From Liolophura sinensis (taxonomy: Eukaryota > Mollusca > Polyplacophora > Chitonida > Chitonidae): a DNA stretch of 64,000 bases. The position numbers and the translations under genes are program-made. Shown piece after piece: positions 1,052 through 53,820 of this stretch (its first letter is position 1; each line of letters begins with the position of its first letter). Under the pieces are notes generated by a model. It saw nothing but the letters and a program-made list of their open reading frames with translations, did not search any database and was not told the origin of the DNA. The stretch covers positions 68,048,984 to 68,112,983 of the forward strand of contig NC_088300.1 of the NCBI RefSeq assembly GCF_032854445.1, in the 5' to 3' direction.

Positions 1052-4000
1052 CTGTGAAAAAAAAGACAAAAAAACAAAACAAAACAAAAACAATAGAGGT
1101 TTAAGTAAAACCCTCACATTTGCATCATATACATGTACCCTCCACAAATCAATCTGTTAATTTCAACAGGGAGTCTGTTGTCTGAGTGATGCTAGAATGT
1201 ATTCTGTTATTATTGCGCAGTATTGTGTTATATTCAGCATATCATTAGGGGGCTTCGTGGCTCAGTTCTCATTTCCGTTCTCTTATCAATATACCTGCAG
1301 TTAATAGGGTAATGTTCTAACTGTTCATGTTGTATAAATACTAAAATGGTAGGGGGGGGGGGGAGGGGGGCTCCGTGGCTCGGTTGATTAGCGCGCTAGC
1401 GCAGCGTAATGACCCATGCAGGAGCATCTCACAAATGCGGTTGCTGTGAGTTCAAGTCCAGCTCATGCTGGCTTCCTCTCCGTCCGTACGTCTCCCAGAA
1501 GTAACCACACCCTGCTATGAGCCTAATGCAGTGCAAAATATAAGGAAATATAGCGTGTCAACTTTTTTTAGTCTAAGTAAAATGAGGATCCCCTGAGGTT
1601 ATATAGGATAAGTGTGGTTATATGTAAAAAAAAAACTAAATATCTAGAAAGAAACCGCGTATTTATCATTAGGTCAGTCAGGTTTATTTTTCTGTCTATC
1701 TTTTTTTTTTCGATAGAAATTCTTTGGCTTCTCGGTCTCCAATTCAAAAAAACATGATTGACTATATACTATTTTACACACCCTGGTTCGTTTCCTCGTG
1801 TGGTTGTTTAGATCTGTTTTTAAAAGGGCATGGCGACCACCTGAAGGCATCATCAACAAACATGTATGAAGTGGGCTATGCATGCTACACTACACATGTA
1901 TGAAGTGGGCTATGCACGCTACATTACACATGTATGAAGTGGGCTATGCACGCTACACTACATATGCATGAAGTGGGCTATGCACGCTACACTACACATG
2001 CATGAAGTGGGCTATGCACGCTACACTACACATGTATGAAGTGGGCTATGCACGCTACACTACACATGTATGAAGTGGGCTATGCACGCTACACTACACA
2101 TGTATGAAGTGGGCTATGCACGCTACACTACACATGTATGAAGTGGGCTATGCACGCTACACTACACATGTATGAAGTGGGCTATGCACGCTACACTACA
2201 CATGCATGAGGAAACAATCGCACTGATTTCAGCTTTTGAAAATCAGACTACAACTTAGGAGTGGGCCTCTGTGGCCGAGGTGGATAGCACGTCAGTGCGG
2301 CGCAATAAGCCAGGAACCGCTCACCATTGTGGTCGCTGTGAGTTCAAGTCCAACTCATGCTGGCTTCCTAAAGGTGGGAAGGACTCTCATCAACCTGCGG
2401 ATGGTCGTGGGTTTCCCCCGGATTCTGCCGGGTTTCCTCCCACCGTAATGCTGGCCGCCGTCGTATAAGTGAAATATTCTTGAGTACGGCGTAAAACGCC
2501 AATCAAATAAATAAATAAATAGAATATGTGTGATATATTTAACAGAATAATTTTCTGCAATAAAATAATACACTTTCAGCATCACACACTCAGATGAAAC
2601 ACTTTCTGTTAAATTTAACATTCATTTTTTGAGAGTAGTAAATAACGACGTTAATAACTTGACCTTTAACAGGACAGCACTGGCTTCCAGCGCTCGTCTT
2701 ATGGAATGCTTGTTGCTTCACTATTGACTTGCTCACTAAATAAGGTGAGCGACTTCTAACCGCGAGGCATACACACGATGATCCCGATGTTAGGCTAAAT
2801 TTTGTAGGTTCCCACACTGCCATGTACTGTATACTGCTCATAATGGCTTTGGTGACAGTATGCGATCGACGATGCTCGTTGACCTATAGTCTAACTTTCG
2901 TTGATGACCACTGGTATTCCACAAATATGGAGCGCAAGTTTACGATGTCACAAGTAGAAAAGTTTATCAGTAACTTGCCAAAGGTCAGTGGTTTACCCCG
3001 GGCAATTTCTTCCTAGCACATATGATAAACTGACCGAAATATAAGTGAATATTAAACAACAATCAATTCGTCTTTGCGGACATCCTCTTTCATTACAGGC
3101 TACTTCCTCGTTCAACACAAGAATTACATTAGAAAAGTCCCCATCCTCACCCCCACCCCCCAGGGTTGTCGCCGTCTAATAGACACTATCCTAATTATGT
3201 TAGCTGAGATTCTCAGTGAGTATAATTACTTAATATCCACATCTTACTTTGAGTACGATGACAGACAAAGCTGTGCTCCTGTTGACAGTCCGTTGTAGTC
3301 CACGTCAAGAACGTGTTGGCGGTCACGTAAGCGCAGACACGTGTCACCGACTGGTTTCTCACTTCTGAGGACTGGTCAAGCAGTGACTGGCACTCACCGC
3401 ACGATGACAGCTCTACTTCCGTACCGGAACCATCAAATAATCGGTACCTAGGGCCGTGCAAAACCAAAAGGTACTCAGTCCAAAAAGAGAGGCGTCTCTC
3501 TCTCGAGCCAAACGACTTTTGCAGTATATCTGTTTTGTCAGGCGTTGTCAAATGTCCCGCCCTACTCCTACAGTCTTCTCGGGCCGAGTCATAATCCAGT
3601 CCCGTCTTAGACAGCCACAGGCAGCGATTGTGTTCCTCATCAAGCTCCCACTCTTCTGACGGGCACTCTGAAAACGCTGATAAATTATTTACTATAAGCA
3701 TCACACCGTTCAAGCATGCATACATATATTGCCTTACATCTTCAACAAGCTTTGTAGTATTCATTAATTAAACAGGTGAACATTTTCTGGGGGGGGGGGA
3801 AGGTATGTGTTATACCAGCTTGTATTGAAATCTCCATTTTTGACTCAATATATGAGCACCCCCCCCCCCAGGAGTCAGTAAATGCACTCATGATGATGCC
3901 TAGATGAATTATACACTGTACTTTGAAACGGCAATGTCAGAGATGGTGACTTAGGCCCCAATTGAGTCTTTAAGTTAATGTCACAAACTTAGGGTAGAAC

Positions 4001-31960: not shown

Positions 31961-32060
31961 AAGTGTAACATTTATAAGAAAGACTTCGGGTTTTGCGATA
32001 TTCATATAGCACTAATTAACGAAGCATATAGTTTAGTTACTTATTAACATAGCGTAGAGG

Positions 32061-32068
32061 TGACGTCA
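32061..32068. promoter_or_regulatory. CRE-like palindrome TGACGTCA
   Basis: A perfect 8-base cAMP-response-element palindrome, about 270 bp upstream of the TATA-like box of the BTB gene. Known as a CREB/ATF site in animals; its use here is inference. Confidence 0.4.
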
Positions 32069-32313
32069 TGTTTGCTAATTAGCCGTGTTTTTTCTCTAAC
32101 ACACAAAAGCTTGACGCTTTTGGCAGGTACGCTGTTTGTGCCAGTAGATCTGTATGACTAAGATCACACAAGTAAGACGCAGTTCGTTGAACCACTAAGA
32201 TAGTTTCCTGTAGTATCAGTTATTTTCGTACAAACCTGAATTGTTGCCAAGTGGCAAGTATAAGTATACAGAGTGGTGGGGAGAAAAAACGACGTAATCA
32301 CATCCTCTTGTAT

Positions 32314-32335
32314 CACGTGACCAGCAGCATATAAA
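32314..32335 (+). promoter_or_regulatory. Candidate core promoter of the BTB gene (E-box and TATA box)
   Basis: CACGTG (32314-32319) is followed by TATAAA at 32330-32335. A donor-like CTAAG|GTAAGG lies 60 bp downstream at 32396/32397, which would end a short non-coding first exon. The first coding exon begins after a strong acceptor at 34112, so an upstream exon is needed. Confidence 0.5.
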
Positions 32336-32359
32336 CCTGGTACCCGGAAGATGGGACAA

Positions 32360-32396
32360 AGCTGATGTCGAGACGACTATGAACACATAGCCTAAG
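32360..32396 (+). other. Predicted 5' non-coding exon of the BTB gene
   Basis: Placed between the TATA box plus about 25-30 bp and the donor CTAAG|GTAAGG. The exact start is not determined. It would splice to the acceptor TTTTTCTGGTTGCAG ending at 34112. Confidence 0.45.
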
Positions 32397-32906
32397 GTAA
32401 GGTTACAACCTCGATCCTATAGGTATACGGTGTCTGAGAGGAAATTTAGTACTTAAGGCAGATTACACTAACAATAGGTAAATACCACAAATGAATTTCG
32501 TTTGCATTGGGAAAGAAATGTAATCTTATAGATTTGCATCAGTTAATATCTGATTCGGTAACACTGAATGGTTTTTTTTTTGGACAGATTTAAATATGCA
32601 CTCAGTTGTTATGATTTTTGTAACATTTTTCGGGATAACGTTTTAAATTACTTCGAGATAACAGAATAGTGATATATTTGACAGGTGTTTCATGCTTCAT
32701 GCAATTTTGATACCCTACCTATATGAATGAAGCAAATCGCTATGCATTATATTTCATATTCATATATTCCGGGATAATCATAAAATTCGTAATTAACCAT
32801 GTTATATGCGCATACGTTTATGAAACAGCAGTAAATCTTTATTTAAATTGTGCTCAGTGCGTTAGTCTTATAACTCTAAAAGAGAAGGAATGTATATTTA
32901 ATGTTG

Positions 32907-33152
32907 TACGCTCAAAACATTAATTTGCCCAGTTTAACAGAAAGTCTGTTTTTTGAGTGATGCTAGAATGTATTCTGTTATTACAACACAATATTCTGAC
33001 ATACTGAACATAGTATCCTGTTAGTCTAATAGAATCTTTATGTTTATTTAAAAGAATATGTGTGTTATGCTTACCAGAATGGCTTCAATAACAGGAAACG
33101 TTCTAGCATCACTCAGACAACAGGCTTTCTGTAAAATTAACACATGTAACTA
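32907..33152. mobile_element. Palindromic MITE, near full length
   Basis: Left half with TGAGTGATGCTAGAATGTAT and right half with GTTCTAGCATCACTCAGACA, the two being inverted copies. It sits in the presumed 5'UTR intron of the BTB gene. Confidence 0.85.
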
Positions 33153-34112
33153 CATTCACGGTTGACTTACCACAATGAAAATGACACACAGGCAAAAGTT
33201 CAAGTTTTGAGAAAATTGACGCCATTGTGAAAGTTGTAGTAGAAAGAATGATCATGGCCTAACGCCACTTCGTGCAGCCATATCGTGGAGAGAGTTGTAA
33301 CAGATAACAGGCGTGAAGAGATGAATCTGGAACACGATGTAGAACGTTTGGAGTTTGTGTTAGTTGTGTAAAGCGTTCCAGCAGATTGTCTTTTCATTCT
33401 CTTATGACAAGTGCGTGTACTGTTCCAGTTTATTGAAAGTAAATGTTTCGTTGAACATATGTTGAGTTAAACCTGTCATATTTGTGCCATATCTAGGAAG
33501 GCACACTGTGAGAGATCTATATTAATTTCCAAAATAGAGTCTATAATTGAAACCATTATTTTTTGCGGTTGCTTGCATTATCTATAAAAAAATATATAAA
33601 TGTTAGTGCGTAAAAAGACTATATCCTGTTATACGAAAATCGTATAAAGTTAATCATCTATGGCTGAAAATCATAGGTACCGTATTTATTTTGTTAATTT
33701 CAAGCGAACAGTGATAAACAAGGTCTGTGGAGCAGATCCTCATTTTTCTGATATCTGACAGCATCCAGAGTTCAGAGTTCAGAGAACAGGGTGGGTCTTT
33801 TGGCATCACTATAATAACACTCGTTTCCACACCCATCAGAGACGTTATTGTTGGCGTGTGGGGATAGCTAAACAATGCAGTGATACACAGGTTCGAAATT
33901 TCCGAGCGAGCTCTTTCTAGCTGGAGCCTGGAATCTCCGTAAATATGACGTCATTAAGGGGTTCTGGTTACCATGGCAGTCTGCCCGACTGGTAAACAAT
34001 CTGCAGTCAAAAGCTCCCTGTATCTCTATACCAGCACCAACTGATGGCATACCTCGAGCTCCAGCTAAGATACTACAGTTACACGATGTTGCTTATTTTT
34101 TTCTGGTTGCAG
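33153..34112 (+). other. Presumed 5'UTR intron of the BTB gene
   Basis: No exon was found. It ends in a strong polypyrimidine tract and CAG at 34110-34112. Confidence 0.5.
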
Positions 34113-34123
34113 ACTAAAGCATC

Positions 34124-35329
34124 ATGTACACGAACTCACCATCAGTCACCGCGCTGCACAAGCAAGTAGCGGTCGACTACAGAGAGCGGAGTAAGATGGC
34201 TTCTACAGGAGGAAGCCCCTCAAGCTGTGGTTCCTCCCCAGATGTCACGATCCAGAGAGGGTTGATTGAACAGCACCTGCTGGACAAGAAACTGGTCGAA
34301 GGGGACTACTGGTACATCGTTGTCTCCGAATGGCTGGAGCAACTGAAGAAGTACCTGGGAATCGCATCGGCAAGAAAGATCTATTGCCCACGCTCTCCAC
34401 CCGGGCCGATCCTCACCAAGAAGGAGTTTGCTCACACGGTCGACGTAGTGCACGAAGACGCCTGGCGCTACCTCTATCAGTGGTATGGCATGGCGGAAGG
34501 CCACCGACCCATTAAAATGGTCGTCTACTCATACAACAAGACGCCCGGCATTGAGCATAATCAAAACTCCTTCAAGATGATGGTTTGTAACGCACCGCCC
34601 GAGGATTTTCAAATCGTAAGATTCAGCAAACTTGAAAAGATCGGCCACTTGGAGTGGAAACTTCGGGAAATCAACCGAATCCCGCGAAGTCAGTCCACGC
34701 GCTTGTGGGGAAAGTCCGACACGGACGCCGGATGGAAACCATTATTTTCTCGTGATAAAGTCATTGGGAAAGTCTTGGAAGTAGATTCGGATTTCACGCG
34801 CCCAGTCATCGCCATGGAGATTCAAGACGCCAACGACACGTGGACGAATTGTCCCGATGGCGTTGAGAATTTCCAGGAGGAACCAACTGGACCGTTATAC
34901 GACCACGATATTTTCGAAGACGTTAAAGAATCGTGGGAGATGGATATCCATGAACAAATCGACGGTATTGGAAGGACGATCGCAGAGAAACTGCACGGAA
35001 CGTTTGGATTTTTTATGGGACGTGCGAAGGACTACATCGATGAAAAAGAGAACAGCCTTCGAGAGCGAGAACGTGAAATAGGCGAACGAGAAGATTTTGT
35101 TGAAGTTCGATTACGGAAGATGGATGACAAAGAAAAACTTCTCAATTCCGAGCTACGGGCCTGCCAAAGCCGAGCTGCTGAAATTGAACGAATCTATGAC
35201 ATCAAAGAGGCCGAACTGGTAAAAAACATCACAGCCAGAGAGGCAGAAATTCAACAAAAAATCGAAGCTCTGGCAAAGGAAAGAGAATTTTTCGAGCAAG
35301 AACGTGAGTTATTCGAAGAAGAGCTCAAG
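34124..35329 (+). CDS. BTB gene coding exon 1: DUSP, UBL and coiled coil
   Basis: The exon starts after the acceptor at 34112 and ends CTCAAG|GTGAGT. It is 402 codons, GC-richer than its flanks, without internal stop. The whole DUSP-UBL module lies in one exon, which is consistent with capture of a processed or shuffled block; that origin is inference. Read-through past the donor adds only five residues before a stop. Confidence 0.9.
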
Positions 35330-36465
35330 GTGAGTTTAATTATGTAGGCAATTATATATTTATTGATATGTGTTTACGCCGCAATAAATATTGCCATACT
35401 TATATTCTGGCTAGCATTCACACTGTACCGTATTGAAAGCATTCGTACTTTCAAAAAAAAGGCACAGTGATATAAATTTAATAAAAAGTCTGTTGTTTTA
35501 GTAATGTTGGAATGTATTTCCTCCCACCATAATGCTGGCCGCCGTCGTATAAGTGAAATATTCCTGGTTACGGCGTAAACCACAAATCCAATAAATAAAT
35601 AAATATTGTGTTGAATATGACGGTTATGTTATAATAACAGAATACATTCTAGCATTACTCATGCAACAGAATTTCTGTGAAAATTAACAGATTATTTTTT
35701 AGTGTATATAAGCTTTGCCACAGGTATGTTCCAATCTCCAGCGTCGTAGCGCTTGATTTCAGAGACTGTTCGCAATGAATTACTTCCCTTGTCACATGAC
35801 AGCATTTCACAGGTCCGAACTTTCTACAGAGCACTCCAAAAAAACCCTTTTTTTATTTATAAGAGTGGATGAACTAAAGGGATGATTTTTTGATGTGGCC
35901 TTATTGTTTGTCAGGCCAATAAATCCTAGGATTATATTCGGTAAATCTTTCATTGAGTCATTGCACCAATATGCACCTCTGTATTGTTTTGTAGCCATTG
36001 CAAATTTTTCCTCCCTTCAACTTTCCACTGTTTCACCATCGTACATATGTTTTTTCTCTTTTTTCACAGCGAGTGTCAGAAATGAACCAAATGCAGGAAG
36101 GTCGAATCAAATTGGATATAGGCGGTACACAGTTTACTACCTCGTTAATGACTTTGCAGAAAGATCCCGACTCCATGTTGGCAGCCATGTTTAGTGGACG
36201 CCACAAGTTAAAGACTGAATCTGACGGAAGTTACTTCATCGACCGGGATGGAGCTCACTTCCGGTACATCCTGAACTACCTCCGAGACGGAGGGATCAAA
36301 GAAGGGACATTACCCAACAGCGACACATTCAGTCGGGAACTTCAGGCGGAGACCGAGTATTATCAGATCTCCGGACTGTTAGAGTATCTTGAAGATCTGG
36401 CCAAACCCAAAGAAGCCTTGGAGGCTACAGAAGTGCGGTCAGAATCCGAGGATTCAAGATCATAA
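34124..36465 (+). CDS. DUSP-UBL-coiled-coil-BTB (KCTD-type) protein
   Basis: Two coding exons, 34124-35329 and 36070-36465, join in phase 0 to give 533 residues. Residues about 46-135 form a DUSP domain (GDYWYIVVSEWLEQLKKYLG, PGPI, then YQWYGMAEGHRPI). Residues about 148-243 form a ubiquitin-like domain of the USP4/11/15 type (IVRFSKLEKIGHLEWKLREI, IPRSQSTRLWGK, end NDTWTNC). Residues about 300-412 are a highly charged coiled coil. Residues about 415-510 are a KCTD/T1-type BTB (IKLDIGGTQFTTSLMTLQKD, SYFIDRDGAHFRYILNYLRD). No USP catalytic domain follows. KCTD-type BTB domains usually oligomerise and many bind cullin-3, so I infer a ubiquitin-ligase adaptor or scaffold; this is untested. A second in-frame ATG at 34196 has a better start context (AAGATGG). 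Confidence 0.88.
35470..35705. mobile_element. Palindromic MITE interrupted by a SINE
   Basis: Left half AAAAAGTCTGTTGTTTTAGT to about 35518, right half from about 35609 with ACAGAATACATTCTAGCATT to the end TTTTTTAGTG. The SINE between them starts in its core and ends in AATAAATA, so it entered after the MITE. Confidence 0.85.
35519..35608 (+). repeat. SINE 3' end nested in the MITE
   Basis: CCTCCCACCATAATGCTGGC to the AATAAATA tail. Confidence 0.9.
36070..36465 (+). CDS. BTB gene coding exon 2: KCTD-type BTB and C-terminus
   Basis: The acceptor TTTTTTCACAG ends at 36069. The exon encodes the last turn of the coiled coil (RVSEMNQMQEGR), the BTB/T1 domain and an acidic, Ser-rich tail of about 20 residues, ending in TAA at 36463-36465. 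Nothing after the BTB resembles the pentapeptide repeats or other C-terminal domains of named KCTD proteins. Confidence 0.9.
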   Translation, partial: RVSEMNQMQEGRIKLDIGGTQFTTSLMTLQKDPDSMLAAMFSGRHKLKTESDGSYFIDRDGAHFRYILNYLRDGGIKEGTLPNSDTFSRELQAETEYYQISGLLEYLEDLAKPKEALEATEVRSESEDSRS

Positions 36466-51839: not shown

Positions 51840-52165
51840 GGGCAGGGGCGTATTCAACATCAGCCAGAACATAGGACAGGGGCGTATTCAACATCAACCT
51901 GAACATAGGACAGGGACGTATTCAACATTAGGCTAACCAGAACATATGACAAGGGCGGATTCAATATTAGCCAAGAGATAGGACAACGGAGAATACAGCA
52001 TCAACCAGAATATAGGACAGGGACGTATTCAACATCAACAATAACACAGGGCAAAGGCATATTGAACATCAACAAGAACATAGGGCAGGGGCGTATCAAC
52101 ATCAACCTGATCTTAGAACAAACGCGTATTCAACATCAACCTGATCTCAGTACAAACGCGTATTC
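51840..52165 (+). repeat. Degenerate minisatellite B
   Basis: Nine or so units of about 33-35 bases with GGACAGGGGCGTATTCAACA and TCAACCAGAACATA. Confidence 0.85.
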
Positions 52166-52199
52166 AACATAACCAGACAGGAGATGGTATAGATAATAT

Positions 52200-52885
52200 A
52201 ACTTATTATTGGAATCAGCGATGTGTAAGCTTTGGCAGTTTGTCTAAATAAACCCATCACTGGAATCAGCGATGTGTAAGCTTTGGCAGTTTGTCTAAAT
52301 AAACCCATCACTGGGATCAGCAATGTGTAAGCTTTGGCAGTTTGTCTAAATAAACCCATCACTGCAATCAGCAATGTGTAAGCTTTGGCAGTTTGTCTAA
52401 ATAAACCCATCATTGGAATCAGCAATGTGTAAGCTTTGGCAGTTTGTCTAAATAAACCCATCATTGGAATCAGCAATGTGTAAGCTCTGGCAGTTTGTCT
52501 AAATAAACCCATCACTGGAATCAGCGATGTGTAAGCTTTGGCAGTTTGTCTAAATAAACCCATCACTGCAATCAGCGATGTGTAAGCTCTGGCTGTTTGT
52601 CTAAATAAACCCATCACTGGAATCAGCGATGTGTAAGCTTTGGCAGTTTGTCTAAATAAACCCATCACTGCAATCAGCGATGTGTAAGCTCTGGCAGTTT
52701 GTCTAAATAAACCCATCACTGGGATCAGCAATGTGTAAGCTTTGGCAGTTTGTCTAAATAAACCCATCACTGGAATCAGCGATGTGTAAGCTTTGGCAGT
52801 TTGTCTAAATAAACCCATCATTGGAATCAGCAATGTGTAAGCTTTGGCAGTTTGTCTAAATAAACCCATCACAGGAATCAGCTTA
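52200..52885 (-). repeat. 51-bp minisatellite C, about 13 units
   Basis: The unit has TGTAAGCTTTGGCAGTTTGT, CTAAATAAACCCATCACTGG and AATCAGCGATG. The period is exactly 51, so the minus strand stays open for 251 codons with a 17-residue repeat (MGLFRQTAKAYTSLIPV). Degenerate, spaced relatives continue to about 53110. No signal peptide or splice support favours a real protein. Confidence 0.95.
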
Positions 52886-53820
52886 ATTGATTCAAATATC
52901 AACTAGAATCAACGATGTCAACATCTTGGCTGATTCAACCAGGAATTGAAATTAGCGAAGTCAACATCTTGAGTGATTCAACCAGCCATTGGAATCGGCG
53001 ATGTTAACACCTTGATTAATTTATCCAATGATCGGAATCGGCGATGTATAAGCATTGGCAGCCACTGGAAATCAACCTATTATTGGAATCGGCAATGTCA
53101 ACATCAACAACAGCACAGCTATTTCAACAACTGCCCTCTATACCTGAGAACAGCTTTCTGAAAAAAGACGTATATCATACGTGTGACATCCGGATTGTTT
53201 AGTCATTTTAGTAAGGAAAGTCGAAGAAGTGATTTCTTTAATTTTAGTCAAAATTTAAACGTCTGTCACACTAAAAGGGTATATCATTATGTTTTATAGT
53301 AAATTCGAATTCAAAACCTGTTCTCCACTATAGAGGGATGTTGTGAAACTCTGTGCTATACGGCATAAGCTGTGAATATGACGGGTTGAACAGGATGCTA
53401 CAAAACACACTATCAGTACATGCTGGGACTAAGATTTGTATATTTTCCTGCATTAATATACAACTAAAATATTTACTAGGCTACCACGCTGAAAGCTGGA
53501 AGCCTACTGTGTTTGCTCAAACAATTAAAAAAAAAATTCTTTTTGGACAGTGCTGTTTGTCTTTTTTCGAACAAACTACAATCTCAGCCCTGACAGAAAA
53601 CATCTCGTGCGTGTTATCTTTTACGGTTTTTGAAGTTTGTTCGTCTAGGTCGCATAGAGCGACGGTCATATTACGTTTCGAGTAAAACCTTTAAACCTCT
53701 TCTTTTCAAGAATCAGTTGACGGTCGCTCTAATATTTGATATGAATGTAGAGCGACACTAGTTTCATAGTTTCTACAAGTTTGCAGAAGATATTAACAAC
53801 CGTTAAATCCGTCGAATATA

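Follow-up and report, generated by a model that had tools for sequence, protein, structure and literature searches.

The ubiquitin-specific proteases USP4, USP11 and USP15 carry a single N-terminal DUSP domain followed by a ubiquitin-like domain (UBL), a compound module that stands ahead of a bipartite catalytic domain with a Cys and a His box. In USP4, this DUSP-UBL activates the protein's own protease through named DUSP residues and also works in trans on the catalytic domain; the mutant Y136A still binds the catalytic insert and has lost activation, and R40E is an activity-reducing mutant (PMC4243247, Clerici 2014). On the side of the ligases, KCTD proteins such as KCTD7, KCTD10 and KCTD13 are cullin-3 adaptors whose canonical order is an N-terminal BTB domain and then a C-terminal domain, although KCTD3, SHKBP1 and KCTD9 have been termed non-canonical members. 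The main cullin-3 interface of KCTD7 comprises D74, M76, M80, R84, H85, D98 and Y131 and the minor one R65, and loop length or stiffness is held responsible in those KCTDs that do not bind (PMC10856315). Seven KCTD proteins with extra domains are listed in Table 1 of PMC13361646, none of them with a DUSP, and the word is absent from that paper's main text. KEAP1 is likewise described as a BTB adaptor of CUL3. USP15 reportedly meets KEAP1-CUL3, as the title of a 2013 study by Villeneuve has it; there the deubiquitinase and the BTB adaptor are separate proteins, whereas the locus considered here appears to bring both kinds of module into one chain.

This locus lies in a stretch of 64,000 nucleotides of the polyplacophoran mollusc Liolophura sinensis (contig NC_088300.1, positions 68,048,984 to 68,112,983; hereafter the window), and is, judged from its sequence, a two-exon gene for a protease-less DUSP-UBL-helix-BTB protein (Table 1). 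Behind it are two open frames, of 409 codons at 34118-35347 and of 156 codons at 35995-36465, and since only ~1e-8 frames of 409 codons are expected in the window at its base composition, the longer one is not a product of chance. Joined at 35329/36070 in phase 0, the exons yield a product of 533 residues in which Pfam places DUSP, Ubiquitin_3 and BTB_2 each above its curated cut-off, the Ubiquitin_3 match only barely so (24.5 bits against 24); the first-pass annotation had named this very profile search beforehand as a possible refutation of its reading. An acceptor-like TTGCAG, noticed by eye, ends 11 bases upstream of the ATG, which makes a 5' UTR exon likely, and the gene is presumably expressed. 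The bipartite catalytic domain is missing from the protein, as had been claimed: the product has no Pfam match to the UCH family at E up to 1, and the six frames of the window hold no match to consensus patterns for the USP Cys and His boxes. Such patterns would overlook any box interrupted by an intron; they do match both boxes in the genome's canonical USP4/15 gene, which served as a positive control.

Table 1. Features of the predicted gene; nucleotide positions are those of the window and residues those of the 533-residue product.
Feature	Position	Strand	Residues	Details
Coding exon 1	34124..35329	+		402 codons; N-terminal tail, DUSP, UBL, beginning and greater part of the long helix; consensus donor AAG/GTGAGT
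DUSP domain	34301..34522	+	60-133	Pfam PF06337 1.7e-8; genome scan with the DUSP family agrees
Ubiquitin-like domain	34616..34843	+	165-240	Pfam Ubiquitin_3 2.5e-5
Long charged helix, possible coiled coil	34913..35326	+	264-401	AlphaFold, single sequence (exon 1)
Intron	35330..36069	+		GT-AG, phase 0, 740 bp; acceptor TTTTTTCACAG
Coding exon 2	36070..36465	+		Helix end, BTB, 28-residue tail, stop (included)
KCTD-type BTB	36106..36378	+	415-505	Pfam BTB_2 1.7e-20; same bounds in the scan of the own genome

The surroundings of the gene contain several other elements. Window positions 32001-34320 are 95.6% identical to C6:68034726-68037080 through a segmental duplication, 2.36 kb long or more, that copies the upstream region of the gene together with its first ~67 codons to a place lying 12 kb ahead of the window. 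Within the intron, at 35517-35606, lies a ~90-bp dispersed element with 19 further BLAST matches across the window in both orientations, one of them only 44 bp long, which looks like a SINE. On the minus strand there are an open frame for a C-type lectin at 3213-3767 (Pfam Lectin_C 1.7e-6) and one of ~17-residue repeats at 52147-52902, the latter likely a tandem repeat and no gene.

The front of the protein has the DUSP-UBL compound domain of USP4/11/15, as the first-pass annotation proposed. When residues 41-245 were compared with PDB sequences by phmmer, 13 of 16 matches were USP15, USP4 or USP11, the remaining three having E values from 0.32 to 1.6, and a single alignment ran through both domains in USP15 (6.3e-14), USP4 (9.7e-14) and USP11 (2.9e-6), the UBL prolonging the USP4/USP15 alignment begun in the DUSP. 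Identity to USP4 over the module is 31%, and the DUSP, though of USP4/11/15 type, is shortened ahead of the VHEDAW segment. Single-sequence AlphaFold gave an unusable model of the DUSP-UBL alone (pLDDT 34), as did the exon 1 model for this part, and no relatives of exon 1 were found in viral contigs. For the helix that follows, the block pLDDT is 88-94 over residues 301-400 and 44-74 in the preceding blocks. Hydrophobic periodicity peaks at 3.56, a value reached by 26 of 1000 shuffles; thus, of the long coiled coil originally claimed, the helix is predicted and a classical heptad coiled coil is no more than moderately supported.

The C-terminal BTB belongs with the KCTDs, again in keeping with the earlier assignment. 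Its best PDB relative is KCTD7 (1.6e-23; 53% identity over 94 aligned positions), followed by KCTD10 and KCTD13 (BACURD3 and BACURD1), whereas T1 domains of Kv channels reach 1.5e-6 at best. A BTB_2 scan of the 609 Mb assembly found 53 places. In a tree of 37 rows (the window, five PDB KCTDs and 31 loci of the genome, with no labelled Kv row and without four repeat loci, L008, L057 and most of the 23 BTB_2 places that have no locus) the window BTB falls within a 12-row KCTD group supported at 100/100 that includes all five PDB KCTDs; its sister there is the genomic locus L002, at a moderate 91/83 that is below the mark for firm support. The order of domains departs from the canonical one, since the BTB ends at residue 505 of 533 and leaves no room for a KCTD C-terminal domain.

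The BTB was also compared with cullin-3 adaptors at the level of residues. With KCTD7 numbering anchored on D74, a placement under which the other seven letters matched the residues named in PMC10856315, all seven main-interface residues are identical in the window BTB. The binders KCTD10 and KCTD13 have six of seven each, the non-binders KCTD1 and KCTD15 two and three; among other loci of the genome the count is seven in L007 (KCTD7-like) and in L003, four in L002 and L004, and three in L005. At the minor interface R65 is replaced by S, where the binders KCTD10 and KCTD13 have T. The R84-D98 stretch has no insertion relative to KCTD7, so that the loop associated with non-binders is of KCTD7 length. 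Because of the complete main interface and the length of this loop, the window BTB is a credible cullin-3 dock, which lends residue-level support to the earlier proposal of a cullin-3 scaffold, binding itself being predicted.

The reading we prefer, with confidence that is about evenly balanced, is that the protein is a cullin-3 adaptor in which a diverged USP4/15-type DUSP-UBL serves as the client-binding head, followed by a long helix and a C-terminal KCTD7-like BTB. Most likely the BTB would form a KCTD-type oligomer and dock onto cullin-3, and the helix would hold the DUSP-UBL apart from it. The DUSP-UBL heads would most likely replace the usual KCTD C-terminal domain in binding clients, since with just the 28-residue tail behind the BTB they are the only recognised folded part left for this task. 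Clients so bound would be brought to the ligase and ubiquitinated, and the protein may thereby send a deubiquitinase's partners to ubiquitination.

The first alternative is that the protein competes with or regulates USP4/15 and takes no part in a ligase, its multimeric DUSP-UBL heads either titrating USP4/15 partners or engaging the USP4/15 catalytic insert in trans with no activation as a result. The residues by which USP4 activates itself bear directly on this. The USP4 row was numbered from M24, whereupon R40, F51, E134 and Y136 matched the letters named in PMC4243247, and ten sites were compared (M24, R40, F51, 88-92, E134 and Y136). Only D89 is identical; the window protein has L and V at positions 24 and 88, E, I, S and K at 40, 51, 134 and 136, and a deletion of 90-92, the phmmer alignment giving E and N instead at 134 and 136. 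With the self-activation residues mostly changed or deleted, stimulation of USP4/15 in trans is unlikely, and a receptor or a non-activating competitor appears more likely. A DUSP-UBL that acts in trans, and a Y136A mutant that binds the insert yet fails to activate, give such a competitor a precedent, and the separate USP4/15 gene of this genome could be its target. The complete cullin-3 main interface, however, would be needless in a pure competitor, and an identity of only 31% to USP4 makes shared partners uncertain. Competition for USP4/15 partners, raised in the first-pass annotation, is only partly supported, and we consider it rather improbable as a full account of the protein.

Returning to the cullin-3 adaptor, the paralogue L002 (on C6, 48 Mb away) bears both on the architecture and on its age. 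It is a single frame of 534 codons with helix and BTB contiguous, and shares 35% identity with the window protein over 280 positions spanning the exon junction of the latter. Since helix and BTB lie here in one frame, the exon join is no artefact of reading; the joining of helix and BTB is well supported by this comparison, and separate transcripts for the two exons, which the first-pass annotation had named as another possible refutation, are unlikely. The front of L002 is harder to judge. By hhalign it gives a weak collinear DUSP-UBL signal running through both domains (136 columns, score 34.1; 34.2 for a slightly longer stretch, reached by none of 200 shuffles, the highest at 23.4), although the hhalign probability is only 44-46% and the profile used contains the window protein. 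The Pfam DUSP match is below the cut-off (0.0037; 18.1 of 29.3 bits), Pfam has no match for the UBL, no USP was among the PDB chains matching the N-terminal half, and the genome scans, whether run with the DUSP family or exon 1, do not list the locus. Two small DUSP-UBL profiles scored 4 and 1 of 1000 shuffles, respectively, above this front. A search with two DUSP-UBL profiles covered L016 and 37 BTB loci at 34 distinct places, with flanks of just 1.5 kb; it clearly recovered the window gene alone, and L002 (also numbered L049) stood at noise level and, with the USP-only profile, scored lower than several unrelated frames. BLAST can hardly align the front of the window protein with that of L002. 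An old DUSP-UBL fusion common to both genes is, on these comparisons, likely but not certain.

With only four of seven interface residues in L002, cullin-3 binding may not be the family's reason for retention. This count, and the barely alignable fronts, would suit a KCTD-like scaffold in which the diverged DUSP-UBL now binds an unrelated ligand and the BTB serves for oligomerisation only; the seven of seven residues in the window gene speak against it, and we regard it as quite doubtful. That two neighbouring genes have been wrongly joined, or that the copy is decaying, is very improbable even though the nearby 5' copy, cut off after ~67 codons by the segmental duplication, indicates that the region yields broken copies, for the splice sites are of consensus type and in phase, the frames are intact and L002 is alignable across the join.

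As to the origin of the front, a DUSP scan of the genome found five places, two of them belonging, as exons, to the canonical USP4/15 gene, which lies on C7 and runs on to both catalytic boxes, and others at L011 and L012. In the canonical gene the DUSP-UBL is split among five matched pieces (E <=0.004), with a sixth at 0.51, whereas in the window gene it lies in one exon; the whole L002 frame is open. The single-exon form fits the capture of a processed copy, and piecemeal intron loss could also have produced it. In the canonical gene itself, two similar copies of the piece that begins the UBL (L021:3068-3211 and L021:3589-3744) are possibly mutually exclusive exons.

Two further loci were considered as fusions and set aside. 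L003 on C1 has a helix and a KCTD BTB, but Pfam at E up to 1 found neither DUSP nor UBL in two open frames ahead of it; by eye, a phase-0 intron lies directly before GRIK, unlike the intron position in the window gene. At L016:8093-9175, also on C1, there is a cysteine-containing front (CFICGEVLQNSVEPGVHLCP) without a Pfam match above cut-off, and that it belongs to the L003 gene is a guess. L004 looks, by eye, like an ordinary KCTD.

Compared with the described systems, the window protein thus shares its DUSP-UBL order with USP4, USP15 and USP11 and differs from them in having a helix and a BTB behind a shortened, single-exon module in place of any recognisable protease, while from KCTD7 and KCTD10/13 it is set apart by what precedes its BTB. 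By description, KCTD9 comes near in that a ubiquitin-like domain stands before the KCTD BTB, but a beta-solenoid lies behind that BTB and no DUSP is listed (PMC13361646, Table 1). Among the matches listed, titles and the openings of abstracts on DUSP with BTB or KCTD, on KCTD evolution and on bivalve KCTDs name no DUSP-UBL-helix-BTB fusion, those that join DUSP with BTB dealing by title with USP15, Hedgehog and HIV, and literature searches joining the DUSP domain with molluscs, or PF06337 with PF02214, returned nothing.

A bolder form of the cullin-3 adaptor is also conceivable, in which the client-binding front of a deubiquitinase, probably as an intronless copy, was captured onto a cullin-3 adaptor, so that clients of USP4/15 would be ubiquitinated through a receptor of the same kind, and the window gene and L002 would form an old family that keeps opposing activities on one recognition surface. 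We hold such an antagonist by domain swap to be unlikely. The protein offers a natural test of whether a DUSP-UBL can by itself recognise clients, and of whether evolution has moved the receptor of a deubiquitinase to the opposing, ligase side.
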